This document shows, one piece after another, positions 4,057-13,746 of a stretch of DNA of 64,000 nucleotides (positions are counted from its first letter, which is position 1; every line of letters begins with the position of its first letter). The position numbers and the translations under genes are program-made. The stretch covers positions 310,001-374,000 of the forward strand of contig JAHHGX010000065.1 in the NCBI GenBank assembly GCA_019359675.1. The letters are read 5' to 3'. The notes beneath the pieces are model-generated. The model saw only the letters and a program-made list of their open reading frames with translations, made no database searches and was not told the origin of the DNA. This stretch comes from Calothrix sp. FI2-JRJ7 (lineage in GTDB: Bacteria; Cyanobacteriota; Cyanobacteriia; Cyanobacteriales; Nostocaceae).

Positions 4057-4902
4057 ATGAGTCTATCTAGTTCTTTCACAGATTTTTCTTTAGCTGAACT
4101 ATTTCAGCTGATTGACCAAGGAAAAAAGTCAGGTTGTTTGACGGTTTGTACTTTACCTAACCTGAAAGTTATTGGCTCAAAATCGCAGCACTACTATATC
4201 TGGTTTCGACAAGGAAATGTAGTTGCCGCGACAAGTAAATTAAATGGACTTGGGTTAGTCGAAAAGATTGTGCAGCGAGGTTGGGTAAACGAACGAACAT
4301 TAAAAAGACTTCGTTTGCAAGCAGCAACAGATACACCTTTAGGTTTATATCTCAAAACTTTAGAAATTTTAAGCGCAGAGCAATTAAACTTGTTGTTTGC
4401 AAGTCAGTTACAGCAAGTTAGACAGTTATTTGAAATCCAAAAGGGTGTTTTTAAGCTCGATAGTAAAGCAATTTTACCTACGAGCGAAATGACTGGGATA
4501 AGTTTACGTGCTACAGAAGTGGCTTTAATGGCTTTACGAGTAATCAAAAATTGGGCAGCTTTGGCTGATGCTTTACCCAACGCGACTTCGGCAATCGAAG
4601 GAATTACACTCGCTAAAACCCAACTTCATCTACATCCCCTTGAATGGCAGTTATGGGAATTTGCTGATGGTTTTGTTAGTTTAAACACACTTGCATCTCA
4701 ACTTAACCAACCTATTGCTACTATCCAGCAAGTTGCTTTCCGATTGATGGTTGCTGGTTTGGTTGAAGAAATTCCGTTATCATCGCATTCACAGAGCTTT
4801 GATGGTTATATGTCCACTTACAGTCCTCAAAAGTCTCAACCGTTAAAAGTGAGTACTTCGTTTTTACAAAACCTAGTTGGTTTTCTGAAGAGTAAAGCTT
4901 AA
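4057..4902 (+). CDS. DUF4388 (PATAN-like) domain protein
   Basis: 281 residues. The N-terminal ~110 residues (FTDFSLAELFQLIDQGKKSG, YYIWFRQGNVVAATSKL, LGLYL) match DUF4388, the domain also called PATAN in cyanobacterial PatA-type response regulators, where it mediates protein-protein contacts in motility and cell-differentiation control. There is no receiver domain here, only a helical middle (second DUF4388-like unit, LRATEVALMALRVI) and a winged-helix-like segment near 190-240. Only 21 bases separate it from the downstream GTPase, so the two are likely co-transcribed. By family analogy it could be an effector or scaffold of the GTPase/roadblock switch; that is inference. Confidence 0.82.
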   Translation: MSLSSSFTDFSLAELFQLIDQGKKSGCLTVCTLPNLKVIGSKSQHYYIWFRQGNVVAATSKLNGLGLVEKIVQRGWVNERTLKRLRLQAATDTPLGLYLKTLEILSAEQLNLLFASQLQQVRQLFEIQKGVFKLDSKAILPTSEMTGISLRATEVALMALRVIKNWAALADALPNATSAIEGITLAKTQLHLHPLEWQLWEFADGFVSLNTLASQLNQPIATIQQVAFRLMVAGLVEEIPLSSHSQSFDGYMSTYSPQKSQPLKVSTSFLQNLVGFLKSKA

Positions 4903-4923
4903 CGACTCTATAAATTAACTGTT

Positions 4924-5460
4924 ATGGAAATTCTACGGATTGTAGTCACAGGAAGTGTTGCTGCGGGAAAAACAAGTTTCATTCGCACTATTAGCGAAAT
5001 AGATGTTGTTGACACCGATAAGCGTGCAACTGATGAAATGGCAGAAATTAAAGCTAACACTACTGTAGCTTTAGACTTCGGGCGCCTAACAATCAGTCCA
5101 AAACAATCGCTTCACTTATACGGTACACCCGGACAAGCGCGGTTTGATTTTATGTGGGATATTTTAATTCAGAAAGCCCATGCTTATATTTTATTAATTG
5201 ATGCCCACCGTCCTGAACATTTTCGCCACAACCGTAAAATTCTTCAATTTTTTAAAAAAAGAGTAGATATACCTTATTTAATTGGCATAACACATTCTGA
5301 TTGCGAAGGCGCCTGGGAAGCGTCGGATATTGCCCTGAGTTTGGGAATGGTAGACGAACAACCACCCATTGTAACTGTTAACGCAACAGAAACAGCATCA
5401 GTCCGAGAAGCTTTAATTAATGTTGTTGAGCTATTGACAAATTGCTATCAACATCATTAG
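4924..5460 (+). CDS. Small Ras-like GTPase 1 (MglA/CvnD type)
   Basis: 178 residues. G1 (P-loop) is GSVAAGKTS at residues 10-18; switch II is GTPGQARFDFMW (67-78), the form seen in the actinobacterial conservon GTPase CvnD and related MglA-like proteins, with Pro in place of the Ala of DTAGQ; G4 is THSD (123-126) instead of NKxD. No lipidation site or membrane segment. Roadblock/LC7 proteins usually act as GAPs or regulators of this GTPase class, and one is encoded just downstream. A second copy lies at 7230-7730, with clear similarity along the whole length. Confidence 0.9.
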   Translation: MEILRIVVTGSVAAGKTSFIRTISEIDVVDTDKRATDEMAEIKANTTVALDFGRLTISPKQSLHLYGTPGQARFDFMWDILIQKAHAYILLIDAHRPEHFRHNRKILQFFKKRVDIPYLIGITHSDCEGAWEASDIALSLGMVDEQPPIVTVNATETASVREALINVVELLTNCYQHH

Positions 5461-5634
5461 TAAAAAAATCATTGAAAGAAAAATTGTAATATATAGCACA
5501 TTCATTATTATTTCTTAAAGTATTTTCACCTTAATATTGTTGAGTTTTGCTCACTATATCGAGATAATACTGCTAATGTATATGTGGTGATAAAAACATC
5601 GGATTCAGCACAAAAAATCAGTACATAAACCGCT

Positions 5635-6201
5635 ATGGCTTTAGGCATAATCCTGAAGCTACTCATGGGTGGGTTTCAGCAGTCTCCATTTTCCATTTTG
5701 CCGGAGCCACAGAAAACTTCGTCTGACATCAAATCAGACGAAGTAGAAGCAACTGTTATTCCAACTCCAGCCATTGAGTTACAATCGCTTGATTTAACAG
5801 CTATTGAATTACCAACTTCTCTAGGACAAGACATGATTAATATTTCGATGTTGCAACAAGAGTTGCAAAACTTTGTCACAGGCGCCTCAGATGTTCAAGG
5901 TGCTGCATTAGTAAGTCCAGATGGTCTTGCCTTAGCATCAGTACTTCCTGGTGGAATGGATGAAGAACGGACTGCCGCCATGTCAGCTTCAATGCTGTCG
6001 CTTGGTGAGAGAATTGGGCGTGAGCTAGCACGCGGAAACGTTGAACGTATTGTAGTTGAAGGCGAAAAAGGTTACGGTGTTTTAATTGGATGCGGTAGTG
6101 AGGCTGTATTACTAGTGCTAGCAGGCGCCGCGGTCAAACAAGGAATTTTATTTTTGGAACTCAAACGGGTGGTGGCAAGAATAGCCCCTTTGTTGGCATA
6201 G
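5635..6201 (+). CDS. Roadblock/LC7 domain protein 1, possibly N-terminally extended
   Basis: 188 residues if started at 5635. The Roadblock/LC7 domain covers about residues 67-188 (FVTGASDVQGAALVSPDG, then GYGVLIGCG) and is about 86% identical to the 122-residue paralogue at 7760-8128. That paralogue starts exactly at the residue equivalent to the internal ATG at 5833, which has AGGAC upstream. The extra 66 residues are low-complexity and proline-rich and may be a real linker or an unused upstream frame. MglB/CvnB-like proteins form dimers that control a cognate small GTPase. Confidence 0.88.
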   Translation: MALGIILKLLMGGFQQSPFSILPEPQKTSSDIKSDEVEATVIPTPAIELQSLDLTAIELPTSLGQDMINISMLQQELQNFVTGASDVQGAALVSPDGLALASVLPGGMDEERTAAMSASMLSLGERIGRELARGNVERIVVEGEKGYGVLIGCGSEAVLLVLAGAAVKQGILFLELKRVVARIAPLLA

Positions 6202-6352
6202 TTAACAATCCTTACTCAGATGCTTGGATTACTGAGTTTAAGTGATGGTGACATAGCGTAAAAATATTAAAGTTTTATCAGTGGAAAGCATCGAATAATT
6301 TAAAGCAACACAAACAATTTATTTTGATTAGCAGTCAGGAGTTTATTACATC

Positions 6353-6910
6353 ATGGCCTTAGACCCACATGTCTTTATGTCCACCCTTGAAAAGCGCGTT
6401 GGCTTAACAGATGCTGACAAAGCTTTATTAAAATCTGAGGCAGAGTGGGGTGCAAAATTAGCTCCAGAAATGGCCGACCACTTTTATGGTTATCTTGGAC
6501 GTGACCCAGAAATGAACAGCATACTTAATGATGATGGCAACGGACGAGTTCATCGTCTACACGAAACCTTCATTCACTGGTTCCAAGAAATGTTTACAGG
6601 TATGGACGGATGGGGTAATGCATACGCAGACCGTCGTTGGAGAATTGGTTTAGTTCACGTCCGTCTTGGTATTGGACCCCAGCATGTCGTTCCAGCAATG
6701 GCTACAGTTGTACACGAAGTTGGCAAACGTCTCAAAGTTGATGGTAAAACCGAAGAACTTAAAGACGCGCTAGGACGAATTTGTATGATTGATTTAGCTT
6801 TTATTGAGCAAGCATATGTAGAAGTGTCTTCCTCCGCAGTCCTTCAAGAAACTGGTTGGAGTGAAGGTTTGTTCAGACGCTTAATTGCTACTGGCGCCAA
6901 ATCAATGTAA
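6353..6910 (+). CDS. Protoglobin-domain protein (haem sensor globin)
   Basis: 185 residues. Globin-coupled-sensor/protoglobin pattern: VGLTDADKALLKSEAEWG at the A/B helices, HFYGYL, ETFIHWFQEMFTG, and the F-helix region RRWRIGLVHVRLGIGPQHV with H102 as the likely proximal haem ligand. The protein ends shortly after the globin fold, so it is a single-domain sensor globin with no output domain; signalling would need a partner. Good start: CAGGAG before the ATG at 6353. It lies between the two GTPase/roadblock cassettes, which suggests it feeds gas (O2, NO, CO) or redox information to them (inference). Confidence 0.85.
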   Translation: MALDPHVFMSTLEKRVGLTDADKALLKSEAEWGAKLAPEMADHFYGYLGRDPEMNSILNDDGNGRVHRLHETFIHWFQEMFTGMDGWGNAYADRRWRIGLVHVRLGIGPQHVVPAMATVVHEVGKRLKVDGKTEELKDALGRICMIDLAFIEQAYVEVSSSAVLQETGWSEGLFRRLIATGAKSM

Positions 6911-7161
6911 TATTTACTTTCATCCCCCTTGTGGGGAATATACGCAATTTTTTTTAAACATGTATCACAAGATACTAGTAAATTGTCGGAATATATATAA
7001 ATATTTATCTATATATAAGTAAATATCTAGCAAATATAAATAAAATGAAACAAGGGTAAAGACTTTAAAAGATAGATATTATATACACACTATATTTGTG
7101 TAAGCAGGATGTATTTGCCAATGTAGTTAATAATGTAAGCTATAAAAATTAAGGGAGTTTA
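6911..7161. other. Intergenic region upstream of second GTPase cassette
   Basis: AT-rich, with repeated TATATA/AAATATTTAT stretches and no gene. Probably the promoter region of the second cassette; the SD AAGGGAG at 7151-7157 serves the short ORF that begins at 7162. Confidence 0.4.
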
Positions 7162-7233
7162 ATGTTTTCAAGTCAATTCGCTGTGGCTAAAAGTTTACAG
7201 GCGCCAAGTTCACAGTCTAATCAAAATAGATGA
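7162..7233 (+). CDS. 23-residue leader ORF coupled to GTPase 2
   Basis: ATG at 7162 follows a strong Shine-Dalgarno sequence (AAGGGAG, 7151-7157). The frame runs 23 codons (MFSSQFAVAKSLQAPSSQSN, then QNR) and its TGA (7231-7233) overlaps the GTPase start as ATGA. The GTPase ATG itself has no ribosome site, so translation of GTPase 2 probably depends on ribosomes ending this ORF. The peptide resembles nothing I recognise and may matter only for coupling. Confidence 0.5.
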   Translation: MFSSQFAVAKSLQAPSSQSNQNR

Positions 7234-7730
7234 GAATTTTACGTGTTGTAGTTACGGGTAATGTAGGTGCTGGAAAAACAACCTTTATCCGCACAATTAG
7301 CGATACCGATGTCATCGATACTGATAAAAAAGCTACTGATGAGACTGCTAAACTCAAACCAAAAACGACGGTAGCAATGGACTTTGGTACTTTAGCGCTA
7401 TCTAACAAAAATTCATTGCATCTGTATGGTACACCGGGACAAGCTCGGTTTGAATTTATGCGAGATATTCTAATAGAAAACGCAACTGCTTGTGTTGTAC
7501 TAGCAAATGCAACTCGTAAAGCTGACTTATTATATGCGCGTGCGGTAGTTGAACTTATTGATGAGCAATTGCAAATTCCATATATAGTTGGACTGACGCA
7601 TACAGATTCGCCTTCTCAAGAATTATCGGATATTTCTGCTTTAGAAGCAAAGGCGCCCATAACTCTAGTCAACGTTACCGACCGAATTTCAATCAAGACA
7701 GTGCTAACCAAATTATTAGAGCAATTGTAA
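7230..7730 (+). CDS. Small Ras-like GTPase 2 (MglA/CvnD type)
   Basis: 166 residues. P-loop GNVGAGKTT at 10-18, switch II GTPGQARFEFMR at 67-78 and G4 THTD at 123-126, all aligned with GTPase 1 without gaps over the first ~85 residues. After G3 the two copies diverge more (AHAYILLIDAHRPEH against ATACVVLANATRKAD), so their effector surfaces may differ. The start overlaps the short leader ORF by ATGA. Roadblock protein 2 follows 29 bases later in the same operon. Confidence 0.9.
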   Translation: MRILRVVVTGNVGAGKTTFIRTISDTDVIDTDKKATDETAKLKPKTTVAMDFGTLALSNKNSLHLYGTPGQARFEFMRDILIENATACVVLANATRKADLLYARAVVELIDEQLQIPYIVGLTHTDSPSQELSDISALEAKAPITLVNVTDRISIKTVLTKLLEQL

Positions 7731-7759
7731 TAACAAATAAATCGTGTGGGAGGATAACC

Positions 7760-8128
7760 ATGATTAATACTTCAATGTTACAAGATGAAATACAAAACTT
7801 TGTTACTGGTGCATCGGATGTTCAAGGTGCAGCATTAGTAACTCCAGATGGTTTAGCACTTGCATCAGTACTACCAGGACCAATGGATGAAGAACGCACA
7901 GCAGCAATGTCAGCGTCAATGCTTTCGCTTGGTGAACGCATTGGACGCGAACTCGCACGTGGTAGCGTTGAACGTATCGTAGTCGAAGGTGAAAAAGGTT
8001 ACGGTGTGTTAGTTGGTTGCGGTAATGATGCCGTATTACTCGTGCTTGCTGGTGCAGGAGTCAAGCAAGGTATTTTATTTTTAGAAATCAAGCGAATTAT
8101 TAGTAGATTGGCGCCATTAATTGGATAA
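7760..8128 (+). CDS. Roadblock/LC7 domain protein 2
   Basis: 122 residues, the whole protein being one Roadblock/LC7 domain. Strong ribosome site (GGGAGGA, eight bases before the ATG). Only about 17 positions differ from the domain of copy 1, mostly conservative, so the pair is a recent duplicate or held under common selection. Probable partner or GAP-like regulator of GTPase 2, and able in principle to form mixed dimers with copy 1. The V4R-like gene follows 24 bases downstream. Confidence 0.9.
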   Translation: MINTSMLQDEIQNFVTGASDVQGAALVTPDGLALASVLPGPMDEERTAAMSASMLSLGERIGRELARGSVERIVVEGEKGYGVLVGCGNDAVLLVLAGAGVKQGILFLEIKRIISRLAPLIG

Positions 8129-8152
8129 CAAATTTTTATAGGAGTCTTAACA

Positions 8153-8611
8153 ATGTTACGTCCCAATTTGGGTGATTTTAGCAGTATTGTTTGCTTTAAA
8201 GCTGCGATTGTGGGAATGGAAGATGCTTTAGGAGACAAAGCAACCGCAATTGCTCTAACAACAGCAGGTCGCAGTCGCGGTAGACAGCTTGCAACTGAAC
8301 TTGGTTTAAGTGGTTCAATGTCTCTTGATGATATCGCTTACAAACTTGGTTATGCCTTGGGTAAAAGCGGTACATGTTTATGTAGCGTAGAAAAAATTCT
8401 TTCCGAAGGTGATGTCATTAAAGTCTACACCAGCGAAACTTTATGTTCAGCAGGAGAACCCCAAGGTTCTGAACGTAAATGTACATATACTCTTGGGGCT
8501 GTTTGGGGCGCCTTAGAACAAACTCTCGGCAAACGCTTACAAGGTAAACACACCGAGTCAGTGCTACGTGGTGGCACTCATGATGTATTTGAATTTACTG
8601 AATTCAAATAA
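8153..8611 (+). CDS. V4R-like (4-vinyl reductase-type) sensor-domain protein
   Basis: 152 residues, good ribosome site (AGGAG). The middle (ATAIALTTAGRSRGRQLATEL; DDIAYKLGYALGKSGTCLCS) followed by a cysteine-containing strand region (TLCSAGEPQGSERKCTYTLG, then a WGALE helix and GTHDVFEF at the end) resembles V4R domains, which bind small hydrophobic or tetrapyrrole-like ligands. This is assignment by pattern; it could instead be an unnamed cyanobacterial family. Its tight spacing behind roadblock 2 places it in the GTPase operon, so a ligand-binding input role is plausible. Confidence 0.6.
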   Translation: MLRPNLGDFSSIVCFKAAIVGMEDALGDKATAIALTTAGRSRGRQLATELGLSGSMSLDDIAYKLGYALGKSGTCLCSVEKILSEGDVIKVYTSETLCSAGEPQGSERKCTYTLGAVWGALEQTLGKRLQGKHTESVLRGGTHDVFEFTEFK

Positions 8612-8613
8612 TT

Positions 8614-8644
8614 CTTGTGGAGCGGGCTTAAGATTGCCCGCCCC
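8614..8644. repeat. TTGTGG..GGGC/GCCC palindrome
   Basis: CTTGTGGAGCGGGC followed by GCCCGCCCC: a GC-rich hairpin between the convergent V4R-like and HutX-like genes, of the same family as 21369-21395 and 33313-33339. Probable two-way terminator. Confidence 0.6.
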
Positions 8645-8650
8645 AGACAT

Positions 8651-9055
8651 TCAAAGCACAACAGGCGCCGTTTCCCACATTTCACCATACTCATCACGCA
8701 ACGCTTGCCAAGCTTCCACTTGTCCAGGTTCATATTCTCCTGGTTTGCCCCATTGTAAAAATAAGCTCAATGCTGACTCTTGCTTCTCATCTAAAAATCT
8801 AATTGCGTAGGTTGTAAAGTTACCACGCTTTGCTTCACCTGTTTCAAACTTTACGTGCTTAATTAAGTCCATATTCAAATGAAACTCAAAACCTTCGGTG
8901 TGCATATTCGCGTATTTGCCCTTCGCCAACTCCGCATAGAATATTTTTTCGACTTTTCCGCGCGCTTCTAATACTGCTGCACTACTGGTAACAATTAAAC
9001 GCAAAGTACCTAAGCTCTCACAAGCTTCCAAAAACTCTTTTAGTGGTTTAGCCAT
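8651..9055 (-). CDS. ChuX/HutX-like haem-utilisation-fold protein
   Basis: 134 residues, soluble. The central part (FEFHLNMDLIKHVKFETGEA, then TTYAIRFLDEKQESALSLFL) resembles the ChuX/HutX/HemS fold, in which 'HLNM' precedes a strand and 'xYAIRFFD' is a conserved strand; those proteins bind or traffic haem. Convergent with the GTPase operon rather than part of it. With a protoglobin 2 kb away, a haem-related role is attractive, but binding residues cannot be proven here. Confidence 0.6.
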   Translation of the reverse strand: MAKPLKEFLEACESLGTLRLIVTSSAAVLEARGKVEKIFYAELAKGKYANMHTEGFEFHLNMDLIKHVKFETGEAKRGNFTTYAIRFLDEKQESALSLFLQWGKPGEYEPGQVEAWQALRDEYGEMWETAPVVL

Positions 9056-9195: not shown

Positions 9196-10683
9196 ATGGC
9201 AGATCAACTTTTAACTGATGCGAACCAAAAGCTGCACGACCGTTACATCGTAATTAGAAAAATCGCAGAAAACGGAAACCGACGCACGCTGCTTGCGTTA
9301 GACTCTCATCATGGTAACGAAGTAGTCATAAAAATTTTGTTATTTAATGAGGAATTTCGCTGGGAAGATTTAAAATTATTTGAAAGAGAAGCAGAAACGC
9401 TTAAGCATCTGTCGCACCCAGCTATTCCTCAGTACCTTGATTATTTTGAGCTAGATACACCTGAAATAAAAGGATTTGCGCTTGTACAGACTTATTGCAA
9501 CGCAAAATCGCTTCAAGAATATATAGACACAGGGCGAAATTTTAGCGAGTCAGAAATAATTCAATTAGGTAAATTATTATTAGGGATATTGCATTATTTA
9601 CATTCACGACACCCAGCAGTTATTCATCGTGACATCAAACCCAGTAATATCTTACTCAATAATACTTCTGGTAATAGTGTTGGGGATGTATATTTAGTTG
9701 ATTTTGGCTCTGTACAAACTAGTATTAAAGCACGTGGTACCAGGACTGTAGTTGGTACTTATGGCTACATGCCACCTGAACAGTTTGGTGGAAGAGCTTT
9801 TCCTGGGTCTGATTTATATAGTTTGGGAATGACGTTAATTTACTTAGCTACCAAAAAACACCCCTCTGAATTACTTGGTGATGATTTAAATATTAAATTT
9901 GAGCAAATACCAAATATCAGTGCTGACTTAAAAGCTTGGTTGAATATTATAATACAACCTAGTGTTAATCGTCGTTTTGACTCAACGACCGCAGCATTAC
10001 ATGCTCTAGATAATTTATCTAATTTACTATCAAATGACGAATATAATTTGTACTACAGAGATAATGATTTGTCAAAACTTAAAAAACCAGCACATAGTAA
10101 AATTAAAATCAAGAAAACCGTAAATAAGTTAGAAATGATATTCCCAACAAAGACAATAAAGCAAATTGTTGGTAATATATTCAATGCAATAATACCAAGT
10201 TCAATTATATTATTTATTGGATATCATTTTTTATTTTACCCGATTATACACATAATTGGGTCATTACTAAAAATATTTATAATTAATTACATAGTCATAT
10301 TTTTATGCATATCACTGGCATTATTTATAATTTCCTGCTTACTAATTAACTTATTCGGTAGAACAAAATTATTAATTGAAGAAAAGCGTTTAATTATAAC
10401 TACAGAAGTATTTGGCAGTCAAACATTAACAGGCGCCCCGCGAAGAATTATTGCCAGAGAGCATATCTGGAAGCTAGTATCCAGCGCACAAGAATATAAA
10501 TTAATTAACTTAAAAAATGATATTGAAAAAATAGTAAAATCACCAAGTTTAATTATATGGGAAGGTACATTTAGCAATCATGATTTGAGTCAATATTTAA
10601 ATCAACCTTTAACGTTACAAGAACGCGATTGGTTAGCGCAAGAAATTAGCGACTTTTTGGATATACAGATAATTCAAGAGTAA
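9196..10683 (+). CDS. Membrane Ser/Thr protein kinase 1 (Hanks type)
   Basis: 495 residues. N-terminal kinase domain (~16-280): degenerate glycine loop (NGNRRT instead of GxGxxG), K46 in VVIKIL, HRDIKPSN with D146 and N151, DFGS (D169), GTYGYMPPEQ as activation-loop end. Then a basic linker, two or three hydrophobic segments (about 325-390) and a C-terminal cytoplasmic ~100 residues with a conserved end (LTLQERDWLAQEISDFLDI). The catalytic residues are present, so it is probably active despite the odd P-loop. A paralogue follows 127 bases later. The nearest input candidates are the GTPase/globin genes upstream. Confidence 0.92.
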   Translation: MADQLLTDANQKLHDRYIVIRKIAENGNRRTLLALDSHHGNEVVIKILLFNEEFRWEDLKLFEREAETLKHLSHPAIPQYLDYFELDTPEIKGFALVQTYCNAKSLQEYIDTGRNFSESEIIQLGKLLLGILHYLHSRHPAVIHRDIKPSNILLNNTSGNSVGDVYLVDFGSVQTSIKARGTRTVVGTYGYMPPEQFGGRAFPGSDLYSLGMTLIYLATKKHPSELLGDDLNIKFEQIPNISADLKAWLNIIIQPSVNRRFDSTTAALHALDNLSNLLSNDEYNLYYRDNDLSKLKKPAHSKIKIKKTVNKLEMIFPTKTIKQIVGNIFNAIIPSSIILFIGYHFLFYPIIHIIGSLLKIFIINYIVIFLCISLALFIISCLLINLFGRTKLLIEEKRLIITTEVFGSQTLTGAPRRIIAREHIWKLVSSAQEYKLINLKNDIEKIVKSPSLIIWEGTFSNHDLSQYLNQPLTLQERDWLAQEISDFLDIQIIQE

Positions 10684-10810: not shown

Positions 10811-12391
10811 ATGACAAAACTCCCAAAAGAATTATTTAACAATCGCTACCAAATTCAAGAAGAATTAGGACGCAACACTGGGCGCCGTACCTTTTTAGCC
10901 CAAGATTTAGAAACTAAACAACTAGTAGTAATTAAACTACTAATATTTAACGAGAATTTTCGTTGGGATGATTTAAAGTTATTTGAGCGCGAAGTGGAAA
11001 CACTCAAATCTTTATCACATCCAGCAATCCCTAAATATATCGAGTACTTTAGCGTTGATATACCTAGCATAAAAGGATTTGCATTTGTACAAAGTTATAT
11101 AAATGCTCGACCTTTACAAGAATACTTAGACAGTGGTCGAACATTCAGTGAAAGCGAAGTTAAACAGTTAGCAAAATCTTTATTGTTAGTATTAGATTAT
11201 CTTCACTCACACCAACCGCCCGTTATTCATCGAGATATTAAACCAAGTAATATTCTATTAGTTAATTGCTCTGCCCATCATATAGGTGATGTTTACTTAG
11301 TTGATTTTGGCTCAGTGCAAACCGCAACTCCTCATGATGGAACCATGACTATAGTTGGCACTTACGGTTATATGGCGCCGGAGCAATTTGCTGGTAAAGT
11401 ATCTTGTGCCTCCGATTTATATAGTTTAGGAGCAACGTTAATTCATTTAGTAACAGGTATCGAACCAATCGATTTACCTTCATCTAATTTACAAATTCAA
11501 TTTGAAGAAGCTGTAAATATTAGTTCAACATTTAGAGACTGGCTCAAGTTAATGACTCATCCCAGTCTCAACAAGCGGTTTAACTCGGTACAATCTGCTA
11601 ATACAGCTTTAGAATCTGGTGAGTTAACCATCAAAAAGCCACCCTTGAGTAATATTACTCTTACAAAAATAGCAGATTGTATCAATATTTGTATCCCTTA
11701 TGGCTCATTTCCATCTACAAAAAAATCTTATTGGCAAGTCATTAATAATATCAAAAGAGATTATCGGCAAGCTTGGTATACAAAAATCTTTGATATCGTC
11801 AGTCTTCGTGGTTTTTGGACATGGTTAATTTGTGTTTTCATTTGTTCAGTTATAGCAATAATATGTGTTGGATTTCCAATCATAGCATTCTTAATGGTAT
11901 TGCCAGAATCGATACGCTACCTATTTATATTTTTAGCTGCTGGCTCTGTAATTATGTCCCTAACAACTCCAAATTTATCTTTTAATATTAAGGATTTTTA
12001 TAAAGGTACCATACCTGATGACAATATTCGATTCGACATAAAAAATTTAAGATATGTAGATGCATTACATCTAAACATCAATCAGCAAGATGTTACATTA
12101 GCATTTACTTATCCCAGTCAAGCTCAAACAACAGAAAATTATATCATTTTTAAACAGCCTCGACAAAACATTTCTAAAATAACTTTTGAAAACAAGAGTT
12201 ATAAAATAATTGAAACTGGAACCGATGAGAACGGTAAAAAGCAAACGGAACAAAAAGAAATACCACCTCGCTTATATATACAGGTAGCTCAAAAAAGATA
12301 TGGATTGAATTATAAGCTGACGGCGCCAGAACTTTACTGGTTAGCAGAAGAACTTAGTTATTTTTTAGATATACCTATCACTTGGGAGTAA
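10811..12391 (+). CDS. Membrane Ser/Thr protein kinase 2 (Hanks type)
   Basis: 526 residues, paralogue of the upstream kinase with the same order: kinase domain (~10-275; RNTGRRT in place of the glycine loop, VVIKLL lysine, HRDIKPSN, DFGS, GTYGYMAPEQ), linker, membrane segments (about 335-395) and a C-terminal region ending LTAPELYWLAEELSYFLDI. The last ~20 residues match kinase 1, so the C-terminal domain is shared too. The middle between them differs, pointing to different signals. The ATG lies only four bases after a palindrome, and no ribosome site is visible. Confidence 0.92.
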   Translation: MTKLPKELFNNRYQIQEELGRNTGRRTFLAQDLETKQLVVIKLLIFNENFRWDDLKLFEREVETLKSLSHPAIPKYIEYFSVDIPSIKGFAFVQSYINARPLQEYLDSGRTFSESEVKQLAKSLLLVLDYLHSHQPPVIHRDIKPSNILLVNCSAHHIGDVYLVDFGSVQTATPHDGTMTIVGTYGYMAPEQFAGKVSCASDLYSLGATLIHLVTGIEPIDLPSSNLQIQFEEAVNISSTFRDWLKLMTHPSLNKRFNSVQSANTALESGELTIKKPPLSNITLTKIADCINICIPYGSFPSTKKSYWQVINNIKRDYRQAWYTKIFDIVSLRGFWTWLICVFICSVIAIICVGFPIIAFLMVLPESIRYLFIFLAAGSVIMSLTTPNLSFNIKDFYKGTIPDDNIRFDIKNLRYVDALHLNINQQDVTLAFTYPSQAQTTENYIIFKQPRQNISKITFENKSYKIIETGTDENGKKQTEQKEIPPRLYIQVAQKRYGLNYKLTAPELYWLAEELSYFLDIPITWE

Positions 12392-12792: not shown

Positions 12793-13746
12793 CTACTTTT
12801 CGTATTTTTCATACGCAGCAACAATTCGCTGCACTAAAGCATGACGCACAACATCTTTTTGTGTAAATTCACTGAATGCAATTCCTTCAACGCCTTTTAA
12901 AATGCTTAATGCGACAGCTAGTCCCGATTGTTGGCTAGGTAACAAATCTGTCTGCGTCATATCTCCTGTAATAACCATGCGTGAACGAAAACCCAAGCGC
13001 GTTAACACCATTTTCATTTGCGCTGGTGTTGTATTTTGAGCCTCATCTACTATTACAAAGGCGTTATTTAGAGTTCGTCCTCGCATGTAAGCAAGCGGTG
13101 CCACTTCAATAATACCCCGTTCAATCAAACCAGGTACTTTCTCAGAATCAATAAATTCATTAATTGCATCATAAAGCGGACGCAAGTAAGGATTGACTTT
13201 TTGCTGCAAATCCCCAGGTAAAAAACCAAGCTTTTCACCTGCTTCTACTGCTGGACGAGTTAAAATTATTTTCTCAAATTGACTGGCTAATAATGCCTGT
13301 ACCGCAACAACTACCGCCAAAAATGTCTTACCAGTACCCGCAGGCCCAGTACAAAATATTAAATCATCAGTACGCAACGCTTGAATATACTGCCGCTGAC
13401 GAAACGTTTTAGCTCGAATTTCTTCACCACGACGAGTTTTTGCAACAGTATCGCGCTGTAATTCGTGCAAATCATTTTCACGGTGTGTATCAAGTGCTTG
13501 AATTGCAGCTTGTATATCTGTACTGTACACATTTTTACCATGAACCCATAACTCTTCTAAAGAGTGAACTATTTGTGAGGCACGGTCAACTTGATTTTGT
13601 GTACCAGAAATTAGTAACTCTTGCCCACGCAGTGCAACACTTGCTCCTGTATGGCGCCCAATCAGTTTAAGATTTTCTTCATAGTTACCCGCAAGTGCGA
13701 GTGCGCTTTCAATACTGGGCAGTTGAATTAGAGAGGCGCCTGCCAT
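12793..13746 (-). CDS. phoH: PhoH-family ATPase
   Basis: 317 residues. N-terminal KH-like part (NLKLIGRHTGASVALRGQEL) then the PhoH P-loop domain: Walker A GPAGTGKT at ~134-141 and Walker B FVIVDEAQN at ~229-237, plus MVITGDMTQTDL. Cytoplasmic ATPase/putative RNA helicase family linked to RNA metabolism and, in some bacteria, phosphate response. Last gene of the ffh-rpsP-KH-rpsU-phoH string on the minus strand, an order that fits an RNA/translation role. A repeat dyad separates it from rpsU. Confidence 0.93.
   Translation of the reverse strand: MAGASLIQLPSIESALALAGNYEENLKLIGRHTGASVALRGQELLISGTQNQVDRASQIVHSLEELWVHGKNVYSTDIQAAIQALDTHRENDLHELQRDTVAKTRRGEEIRAKTFRQRQYIQALRTDDLIFCTGPAGTGKTFLAVVVAVQALLASQFEKIILTRPAVEAGEKLGFLPGDLQQKVNPYLRPLYDAINEFIDSEKVPGLIERGIIEVAPLAYMRGRTLNNAFVIVDEAQNTTPAQMKMVLTRLGFRSRMVITGDMTQTDLLPSQQSGLAVALSILKGVEGIAFSEFTQKDVVRHALVQRIVAAYEKYEK

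Follow-up and report, generated by a model that had tools for sequence, protein, structure and literature searches.

To what, if anything, does a globin that carries no output domain of its own pass a signal? Bacterial protoglobins have been on record for two decades, most of them with no known partner in signalling, and the question is raised by a locus in the cyanobacterium Calothrix sp. FI2-JRJ7. In the 64,000-nucleotide stretch analyzed here (contig JAHHGX010000065.1, positions 310,001 to 374,000; hereafter the window), a protoglobin gene lies on the plus strand within a run of seven co-oriented open reading frames (ORFs), together with genes for two Ras-like small GTPases, two Roadblock/LC7 proteins, a DUF4388/PATAN protein and a V4R-like protein. 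A preliminary description of this DNA had reported seven genes on one strand within 4.6 kb and a facing gene of a haem-related fold; an ORF check located all seven between positions 4057 and 8611, and Pfam scans agreed (Table 1). We find that the operon is real and widespread, and that it represents a kind of roadblock-GTPase system with a haem-globin partner. Our overall reading, which we hold to be probable but well short of secure, is of a widespread cyanobacterial operon in which sensors would act on roadblock dimers, the dimers on a Ras-like GTPase and the GTPase on a PATAN protein.

The distribution of these genes was surveyed in 388 genomes of the class Cyanobacteriia. The globin was present in 84 genomes and the GTPase (E<=1e-10) in 124, and the GTPase was found in 80 of the 84 globin genomes compared with 44 of the 304 others (Fisher p 3e-45, for genomes that are not independent). 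ORFs around the globins were annotated with profiles built from the collected loci. This set comprised 92 whole globin genes in 82 genomes; fragments in genomes G289 (locus L170) and G296 (locus L203, where the fragment contains a stop and lies next to a V4R-roadblock-GTPase-PATAN set) were excluded, and neither a 39-residue piece in G066 nor a second small piece in G297 was counted as a globin gene. In one further genome (G029, locus L202) the globin is interrupted by one internal stop. Within 4 kb on the same strand, 82 of the 92 globins had a roadblock gene, 78 (in 75 genomes) a roadblock and a GTPase gene, and 70 a PATAN gene in addition, while a V4R gene was near 25 and a hemerythrin-like gene near 22. 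Where both flanks of the globin reached at least 3.5 kb, the linkage was seen in 68 of 79. All 293 partner genes lay on the strand of the globin and none on the opposite strand (89 roadblock, 83 GTPase, 74 PATAN, 25 V4R and 22 hemerythrin-like genes), and the median gaps between globin and roadblock, roadblock and GTPase, and GTPase and PATAN genes were 72 to 93 bp. Far from being unique to one genome, as the preliminary description had allowed it might be, the globin, roadblock and GTPase genes stood together in 13 of the 14 globin-bearing families. The co-occurrence and the co-orientation together argue that this is not a chance neighbourhood. A second set, of 80 named loci that partly overlap the census genomes and are not independent of them, contained 61 with 3.5 kb available to either side; of these 61, 50 had both roadblock and GTPase genes, and in none did a core gene lie on the other strand. 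Mixed strands away from a globin were seen in one case, a GTPase-roadblock pair facing another GTPase (L253). No ORF called in the loci examined fused two cassette families, and no further family occurred in at least six genomes in the contiguous same-strand flanks. In five genomes (L113, L172, L246, L269), the cassette is followed on its own strand by a large ORF of about 625-660 amino acids that includes an NTPase-like stretch.

The order of the genes within these runs was analyzed by reducing 205 co-oriented runs to 62 distinct orders and shuffling the genes inside each of them 5000 times. Sensor genes (globin or V4R) adjoined roadblock genes 72 times against 49.3 expected, and GTPase genes adjoined PATAN genes 35 times against 19.6; no shuffle gave a number as high in either case. 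Adjacency of roadblock and GTPase genes was also in excess (48 against 34.8, 6 of 5000 shuffles as high), as was that of globin and roadblock genes alone (38 against 27.7, 20 of 5000) and of V4R and roadblock genes (34 against 21.6). The opposite was true of sensor-GTPase (15 against 33.7), sensor-PATAN (11 against 24.8) and roadblock-PATAN neighbours (10 against 21.7), each with no shuffle as low. The commonest order was globin-roadblock-GTPase-PATAN-hemerythrin, and in some runs sensor-roadblock pairs were stacked ahead of one GTPase (V4R-roadblock-globin-roadblock-GTPase-PATAN and V4R-roadblock-V4R-roadblock-GTPase-PATAN). We infer that the order of the genes mirrors the order of signalling.

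The window globin belongs to the protoglobin family (PF11563 over residues 14-158) and is 96% identical to the globin of Dulcicalothrix desertica PCC 7102. In an alignment of 154 distinct globins, Phe44, Tyr45 and His102 were invariant; we take Tyr45 to be the distal and His102 the proximal haem residue, from alignment with the globin domain of AfGcHK and the known motif. From what is known of the family, the protein is a putative gas sensor, for O2, NO or CO. The globin had been described at the outset as lacking an output domain, and it is indeed a single-domain protein of 185 amino acids; past the Pfam domain, however, it has a C-terminal tail in which nine residues (E166, T167, G168, W169, L173, F174, R176, G181 and A182) are conserved at 95% or more across the 154 globins. 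This degree of conservation suggests a docking surface. Nine globin loci have no cassette genes within 6 kb. Four of these are second globin copies in one genus (L144, L148, L160 and L168), which lie between a kinase gene and what we take to be genes for a thiamine-diphosphate enzyme and an aldehyde dehydrogenase; the others are L114, L115, L121, L123 and L125. In the seven of the nine orphan globins whose tails were compared, the motif is kept with small changes, which would fit action in trans. The preliminary description had cast the globin and the V4R-like protein as inputs and the GTPase as the switch, and this part agrees with the gene order and the conserved haem residues; it had overlooked the hemerythrin-like member and the roadblock as the usual neighbour of the sensors.

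The closest solved structure to the globin is that of Tlr1989 from Thermosynechococcus (PDB 8h17, 3.1e-82), a member, with other bacterial protoglobins, of the same globin family. Over 184 amino acids the crystallized stretch is 100% identical to the first gene of a globin-roadblock-GTPase-PATAN-hemerythrin run (L165), in which the successive gaps are about 76, 38, 28 and 17 bp. A protoglobin of T. elongatus already appears in a list from 2006 (PMC1457004), and in the literature searched, which was mostly without subscription papers, we found no paper that ties Tlr1989 to a GTPase system.

Both window GTPases carry the GTPGQ switch II that had been pointed out in them, and it is invariant among 32 aligned GTPases. 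The P-loop, YGTPGQxRF and THxD are likewise invariant or nearly so, Thr46/47 is kept, and the G1 to G3 motifs are complete. The two window GTPases are 51% identical and match ATP_bind_1 at E 6.5e-12 and 2.8e-13, respectively. The GTPase profile matched Arf-like structures (2.6e-9), KRas (6.4e-8) and MglA (1.5e-7 for 3t12 and 8.5e-7 for 6hjh). The two window roadblock proteins are 87% identical over 121 amino acids, and the second matches PDB roadblock structures (best 1.8e-23). Because the ORF of roadblock 1 opens at 5635, 66 codons ahead of the start of homology at 5833, its true start is unsure and the one listed is perhaps wrong.

To view the cassette from the side of the GTPase, 60 extra GTPase loci were added, 40 from genomes without the globin and 20 from genomes with it. 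Altogether 138 cassettes in 119 genomes were examined (G009, G045, G276, G313 and G315 being left out of the 124 GTPase genomes), and 104 were kept after dropping those with less than 3.5 kb on either side. A roadblock gene lay on the same strand within 4.5 kb of the GTPase in 101 of these; a published criterion for MglA-type GTPases is a roadblock gene within four genes (PMC4316618). PATAN genes were present in 97, globin genes in 67, V4R genes in 42 and hemerythrin-like genes in 26. These counts argue that roadblock, GTPase and PATAN genes form the core and that the sensors are optional additions, present in some cassettes and missing from others. On the GTPase tree the presence of the globin changed at least 12 times, 7 of them on well-supported branches (FastTree, with long-branch warnings), and the globin was scattered rather than clustered (12 changes against a shuffled mean of 12.5). 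The V4R gene sometimes shares a cassette with the globin and sometimes stands there without it. The raw counts would suggest that V4R replaces the globin (19 of 67 cassettes with globin against 23 of 37 without, Fisher p 0.0015); this was not established, because there were just 7 independent pairs on supported branches, with a median p of 0.5. Hemerythrin-like genes were found in none of the 42 cassettes with V4R and in 26 of the 62 without it (p 1e-7), a pattern that again could not be separated from shared descent (6 pairs, median p 1).

The preliminary description's guess of a V4R-like protein is borne out by structure prediction. The window protein has no Pfam match, and 9 of 41 aligned members match V4R (PF02830) weakly (best 6.8e-4); a V4R profile searched against PDB sequences gave nothing under E 0.1 and no V4R protein. 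The AlphaFold2 model, with a mean pLDDT of 93.8, matched in Foldseek the V4R sensors MopR, PoxR and DmpR most closely (MopR/PoxR 6e-6), then Bet3/TRAPPC3 (Bet3 1.8e-5) and a Nostoc H-NOX protein (9.3e-4). By analogy with these proteins it may be a sensor of a small ligand. The PATAN gene of the window is the only full-length match to PATAN alignment A2 in its genome. Its model (mean pLDDT 87.3) had no Foldseek match at E<=0.001 and weak ones to MshE (60 columns) and winged-helix proteins; that this protein acts as output or effector is among the least certain parts of our reading. The hemerythrin-like gene is a recurrent extra member of the operon, and all 24 proteins scanned match Pfam Hemerythrin. 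The di-iron ligands of bacteriohemerythrins are five His, one Glu and one Asp. The operon proteins keep H21, H58, E62, H81, H119 and D124, which falls short of the full set. These proteins (L146, L153, L165, L198 and others) also have an invariant Cys71, and Asn77 in the place of one ligand His.

Drawing on the families present, their co-oriented linkage, the logic of the gene order and the conserved haem-pocket residues, we propose a sensor mechanism that seems plausible. The input would come from a soluble haem protoglobin, acting by itself or alongside a V4R-fold or hemerythrin-like second sensor, and would reach roadblock dimers. The dimers may serve as a GTPase-activating protein (GAP) and/or a guanine-nucleotide exchange factor (GEF) for the Ras-like GTPase, which resembles MglA in its operon partner, and the PATAN protein would relay the GTP-bound switch, with the type IV pilus motor as the most plausible target. 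Gas binding, contact between globin and roadblock, and GAP/GEF action are suggested by what is known of the families, and the PATAN output and its target, perhaps the pilus motor, are the least certain steps. PATAN regulators bind PilB1, and PixG binds PilC too (PMC9090330, PMC12288463); in Myxococcus, type IV pilus genes are under the control of NmpU, a kinase with a protoglobin domain (PMC6211767). Should the proposal be right, it would show how oxygen-producing cells could tie their polarity or motility to O2 or NO. Cyanobacterial protoglobins gain a candidate partner, testable in laboratory strains such as Thermosynechococcus, for whose globin a structure exists, and V4R proteins, relatives of a subunit of the eukaryotic Rab exchange factor, are placed in an operon with a roadblock and a GTPase.

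Several observations weigh against this proposal. Four genomes have a globin without a GTPase match (G193, G289, G297 and G309). The globin of G289 is a fragment, and those of G297 (a genome 68% complete) and G309 lie on contigs of 6.2 and 3.8 kb and still adjoin V4R or roadblock genes; the globin of G193, which has 6 kb flanks, is the one clear exception. Fourteen of the 92 whole globins lack an adjoining roadblock and GTPase gene, some at contig ends and several as second copies in cassette genomes, and two genomes (G002 and G027) carry globin and cassette apart. Since 37 of the 104 cassettes have no globin, the globin is not essential, and 9 of the 104 have neither globin nor V4R nor hemerythrin-like gene. 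The distinct gene orders are related by descent, and contig ends truncate some of them; hemerythrin-like and PATAN genes were not neighbours beyond expectation among them (5 against 4.6). Oxygen binding by the hemerythrin-like proteins is doubtful because Asn77 replaces one ligand His, as found in DcrH, in 24 of 24 aligned proteins, and the hemerythrin profile had no match in the window genome, an empty result that shows little by itself. In wider flanks (up to 6 kb, either strand), further families recurred, among them a response-regulator-like family in 20 genomes and a DeoC-like family in 15, both named from sequence.

The pieces of the proposed system have precedents in MglAB, the conservons, PATAN genes near MglB and one globin-roadblock fusion, and no description of the cyanobacterial globin-roadblock-GTPase operon as a whole was found in the literature searched. 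In the MglA/MglB systems of Myxococcus and Thermus, a Ras-like GTPase gene likewise lies beside the gene of its roadblock regulator, although MglA structures score no better than Arf-like or KRas structures with the GTPase profile of the operon, and the accessible text of PMC4316618 does not mention soluble globin, V4R or hemerythrin partners. PATAN genes have been reported near mglA or mglB homologues (Makarova 2006; Wuichet and Sogaard-Andersen 2014, PMC4316618), occasionally near mglA of groups 1 and 5 (PMC4316618). The actinobacterial conservons (CvnABCD) also combine roadblock, GTPase and sensor in one operon, but there the sensor CvnA is histidine-kinase-like and CvnC is a further protein (PMC4316618, PMC13343842). 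Membership of the conservons was rejected: the 10 window proteins scanned had no CvnA or CvnC domain, and a kinase family occurred in the same-strand flanks of at most 4 genomes. HGbRL of Methylacidiphilum, a globin fused to a roadblock domain, likewise pairs a globin with a roadblock and has been proposed by its authors to relay a signal (PMC4476040). Its globin is of the HGbI/HMP group, lacks helix D, is fused and is known from one genus, whereas that of the operon is a protoglobin encoded by a separate gene. The fusion hints, independently, that globins may be able to act on roadblocks.

A bolder version of the proposal, which we regard as possible but unlikely, would make the operon a modular bacterial G-protein receptor system. 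Interchangeable soluble sensors (haem globin, V4R or hemerythrin-like) would pair with roadblocks as ligand-gated exchange or activating factors, several of them acting on a single Ras-like GTPase, and the pair of V4R and roadblock would then be a bacterial counterpart of TRAPP, in an operon with its GTPase. TRAPP (Bet3 and longin subunits, a Rab GEF) and its Asgard counterparts bring together a V4R/Bet3 fold, roadblock and small GTPase as the operon does. In the Asgard archaeon MK-D1, unlike here, small GTPase genes generally lie outside operons with such partners (PMC10933270).

An improbable rival to the main reading is a tetrapyrrole or redox sensor, in which haem or a pigment intermediate, bound by globin and V4R protein, would inform the GTPase of pigment status. 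V4R proteins adjoin bilin-binding globins in other cyanobacterial clusters (PMC10151467), and V4R and TRAPPC3 folds have ligand cavities, but the named ligands of TRAPPC3 and PoxR are palmitic acid and phenols (PMC10933270). Moreover, the operon's globin is a protoglobin whose distal Tyr and proximal His match those of AfGcHK, and the other recurrent partner has a hemerythrin fold. We give still less credence to a protective enzyme, that is, a globin (and a hemerythrin) that scavenges NO, peroxynitrite or O2 and is merely co-expressed with a polarity or motility GTPase. A Methanosarcina protoglobin does have nitrite-reductase and peroxynitrite-isomerisation activity (PMC4020757); yet the absence of other families, hence of a reductase, from the contiguous same-strand flanks of six or more genomes speaks against it, as does the excess of sensor-roadblock neighbours, and the conserved globin tail would be better explained by docking. 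That the globin has a role of its own and shares only its regulation with the GTPase is improbable: the orphan globins and the cassettes without globin would fit, but the genes stay linked in 13 families and through many rearrangements, nearly all globin genomes have the GTPase, and the seven orphans compared keep the tail motif with small changes. Chance or lineage synteny, for which one might cite the nearby HutX and PhoH genes with their lineage-bound look, is refuted by the census, the order shuffles and the co-occurrence, and is very improbable.

Table 1. Genes of the window locus and its surroundings (window coordinates)
Feature	Position	Strand	Evidence
DUF4388/PATAN protein, 281 aa	4057..4902	+	Pfam DUF4388 E 2.7e-24
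Ras-like small GTPase 1	4924..5460	+	Pfam ATP_bind_1, Roc, Ras
Roadblock/LC7 protein 1	5635..6201	+	Pfam Robl_LC7 7.8e-18; start perhaps 5833
Single-domain protoglobin (S-family globin), 185 aa	6353..6910	+	Pfam Protoglobin 5.6e-21
Ras-like small GTPase 2, divergent copy	7230..7730	+	Pfam ATP_bind_1, Roc, Ras
Roadblock/LC7 protein 2	7760..8128	+	Pfam Robl_LC7 2.8e-17
V4R-fold protein (Bet3/TRAPPC3/H-NOX-like fold)	8153..8611	+	AlphaFold2 model and Foldseek; no Pfam match
ChuX/HutX-like gene, convergent on operon	8651-9055	-	Pfam ChuX_HutX 2.1e-11
Serine/threonine-kinase-like gene	9196-10683		
Serine/threonine-kinase-like gene	10811-12391		
PhoH-like gene	12793-13746	-	

In the window itself the module is doubled, a PATAN-GTPase-roadblock-globin set being followed by GTPase, roadblock and V4R genes. 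At the thresholds used, these are the sole roadblocks and the sole GTPases of this family in the genome. A second GTPase-roadblock pair is also present in L031, L032, L033 and L035; L034 has part of a GTPase and L036 no pair. The second pair is a duplication common to the near (Calothrix-type) relatives of the window genome. The window gave no hits to Rfam families or tRNAs, and promoter-like and terminator-like sites were not in excess of shuffles. The HutX-like gene, which had been counted as part of the unit, was rejected as a member of the operon. It lies on the opposite strand, and a HutX-like gene was near the globin in 18 of the 61 named loci with room and in 1 of the 94 census loci (L111-L204), the window's own; on these grounds it is a lineage neighbour. 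Past it lies the PhoH-like gene, and several related named loci carry both genes in this orientation. The two neighbouring serine/threonine-kinase-like genes that follow the cluster have hydrophobic stretches in their C-terminal parts, and both are also found in L031-L033 and L035, the second being matched by blast only.

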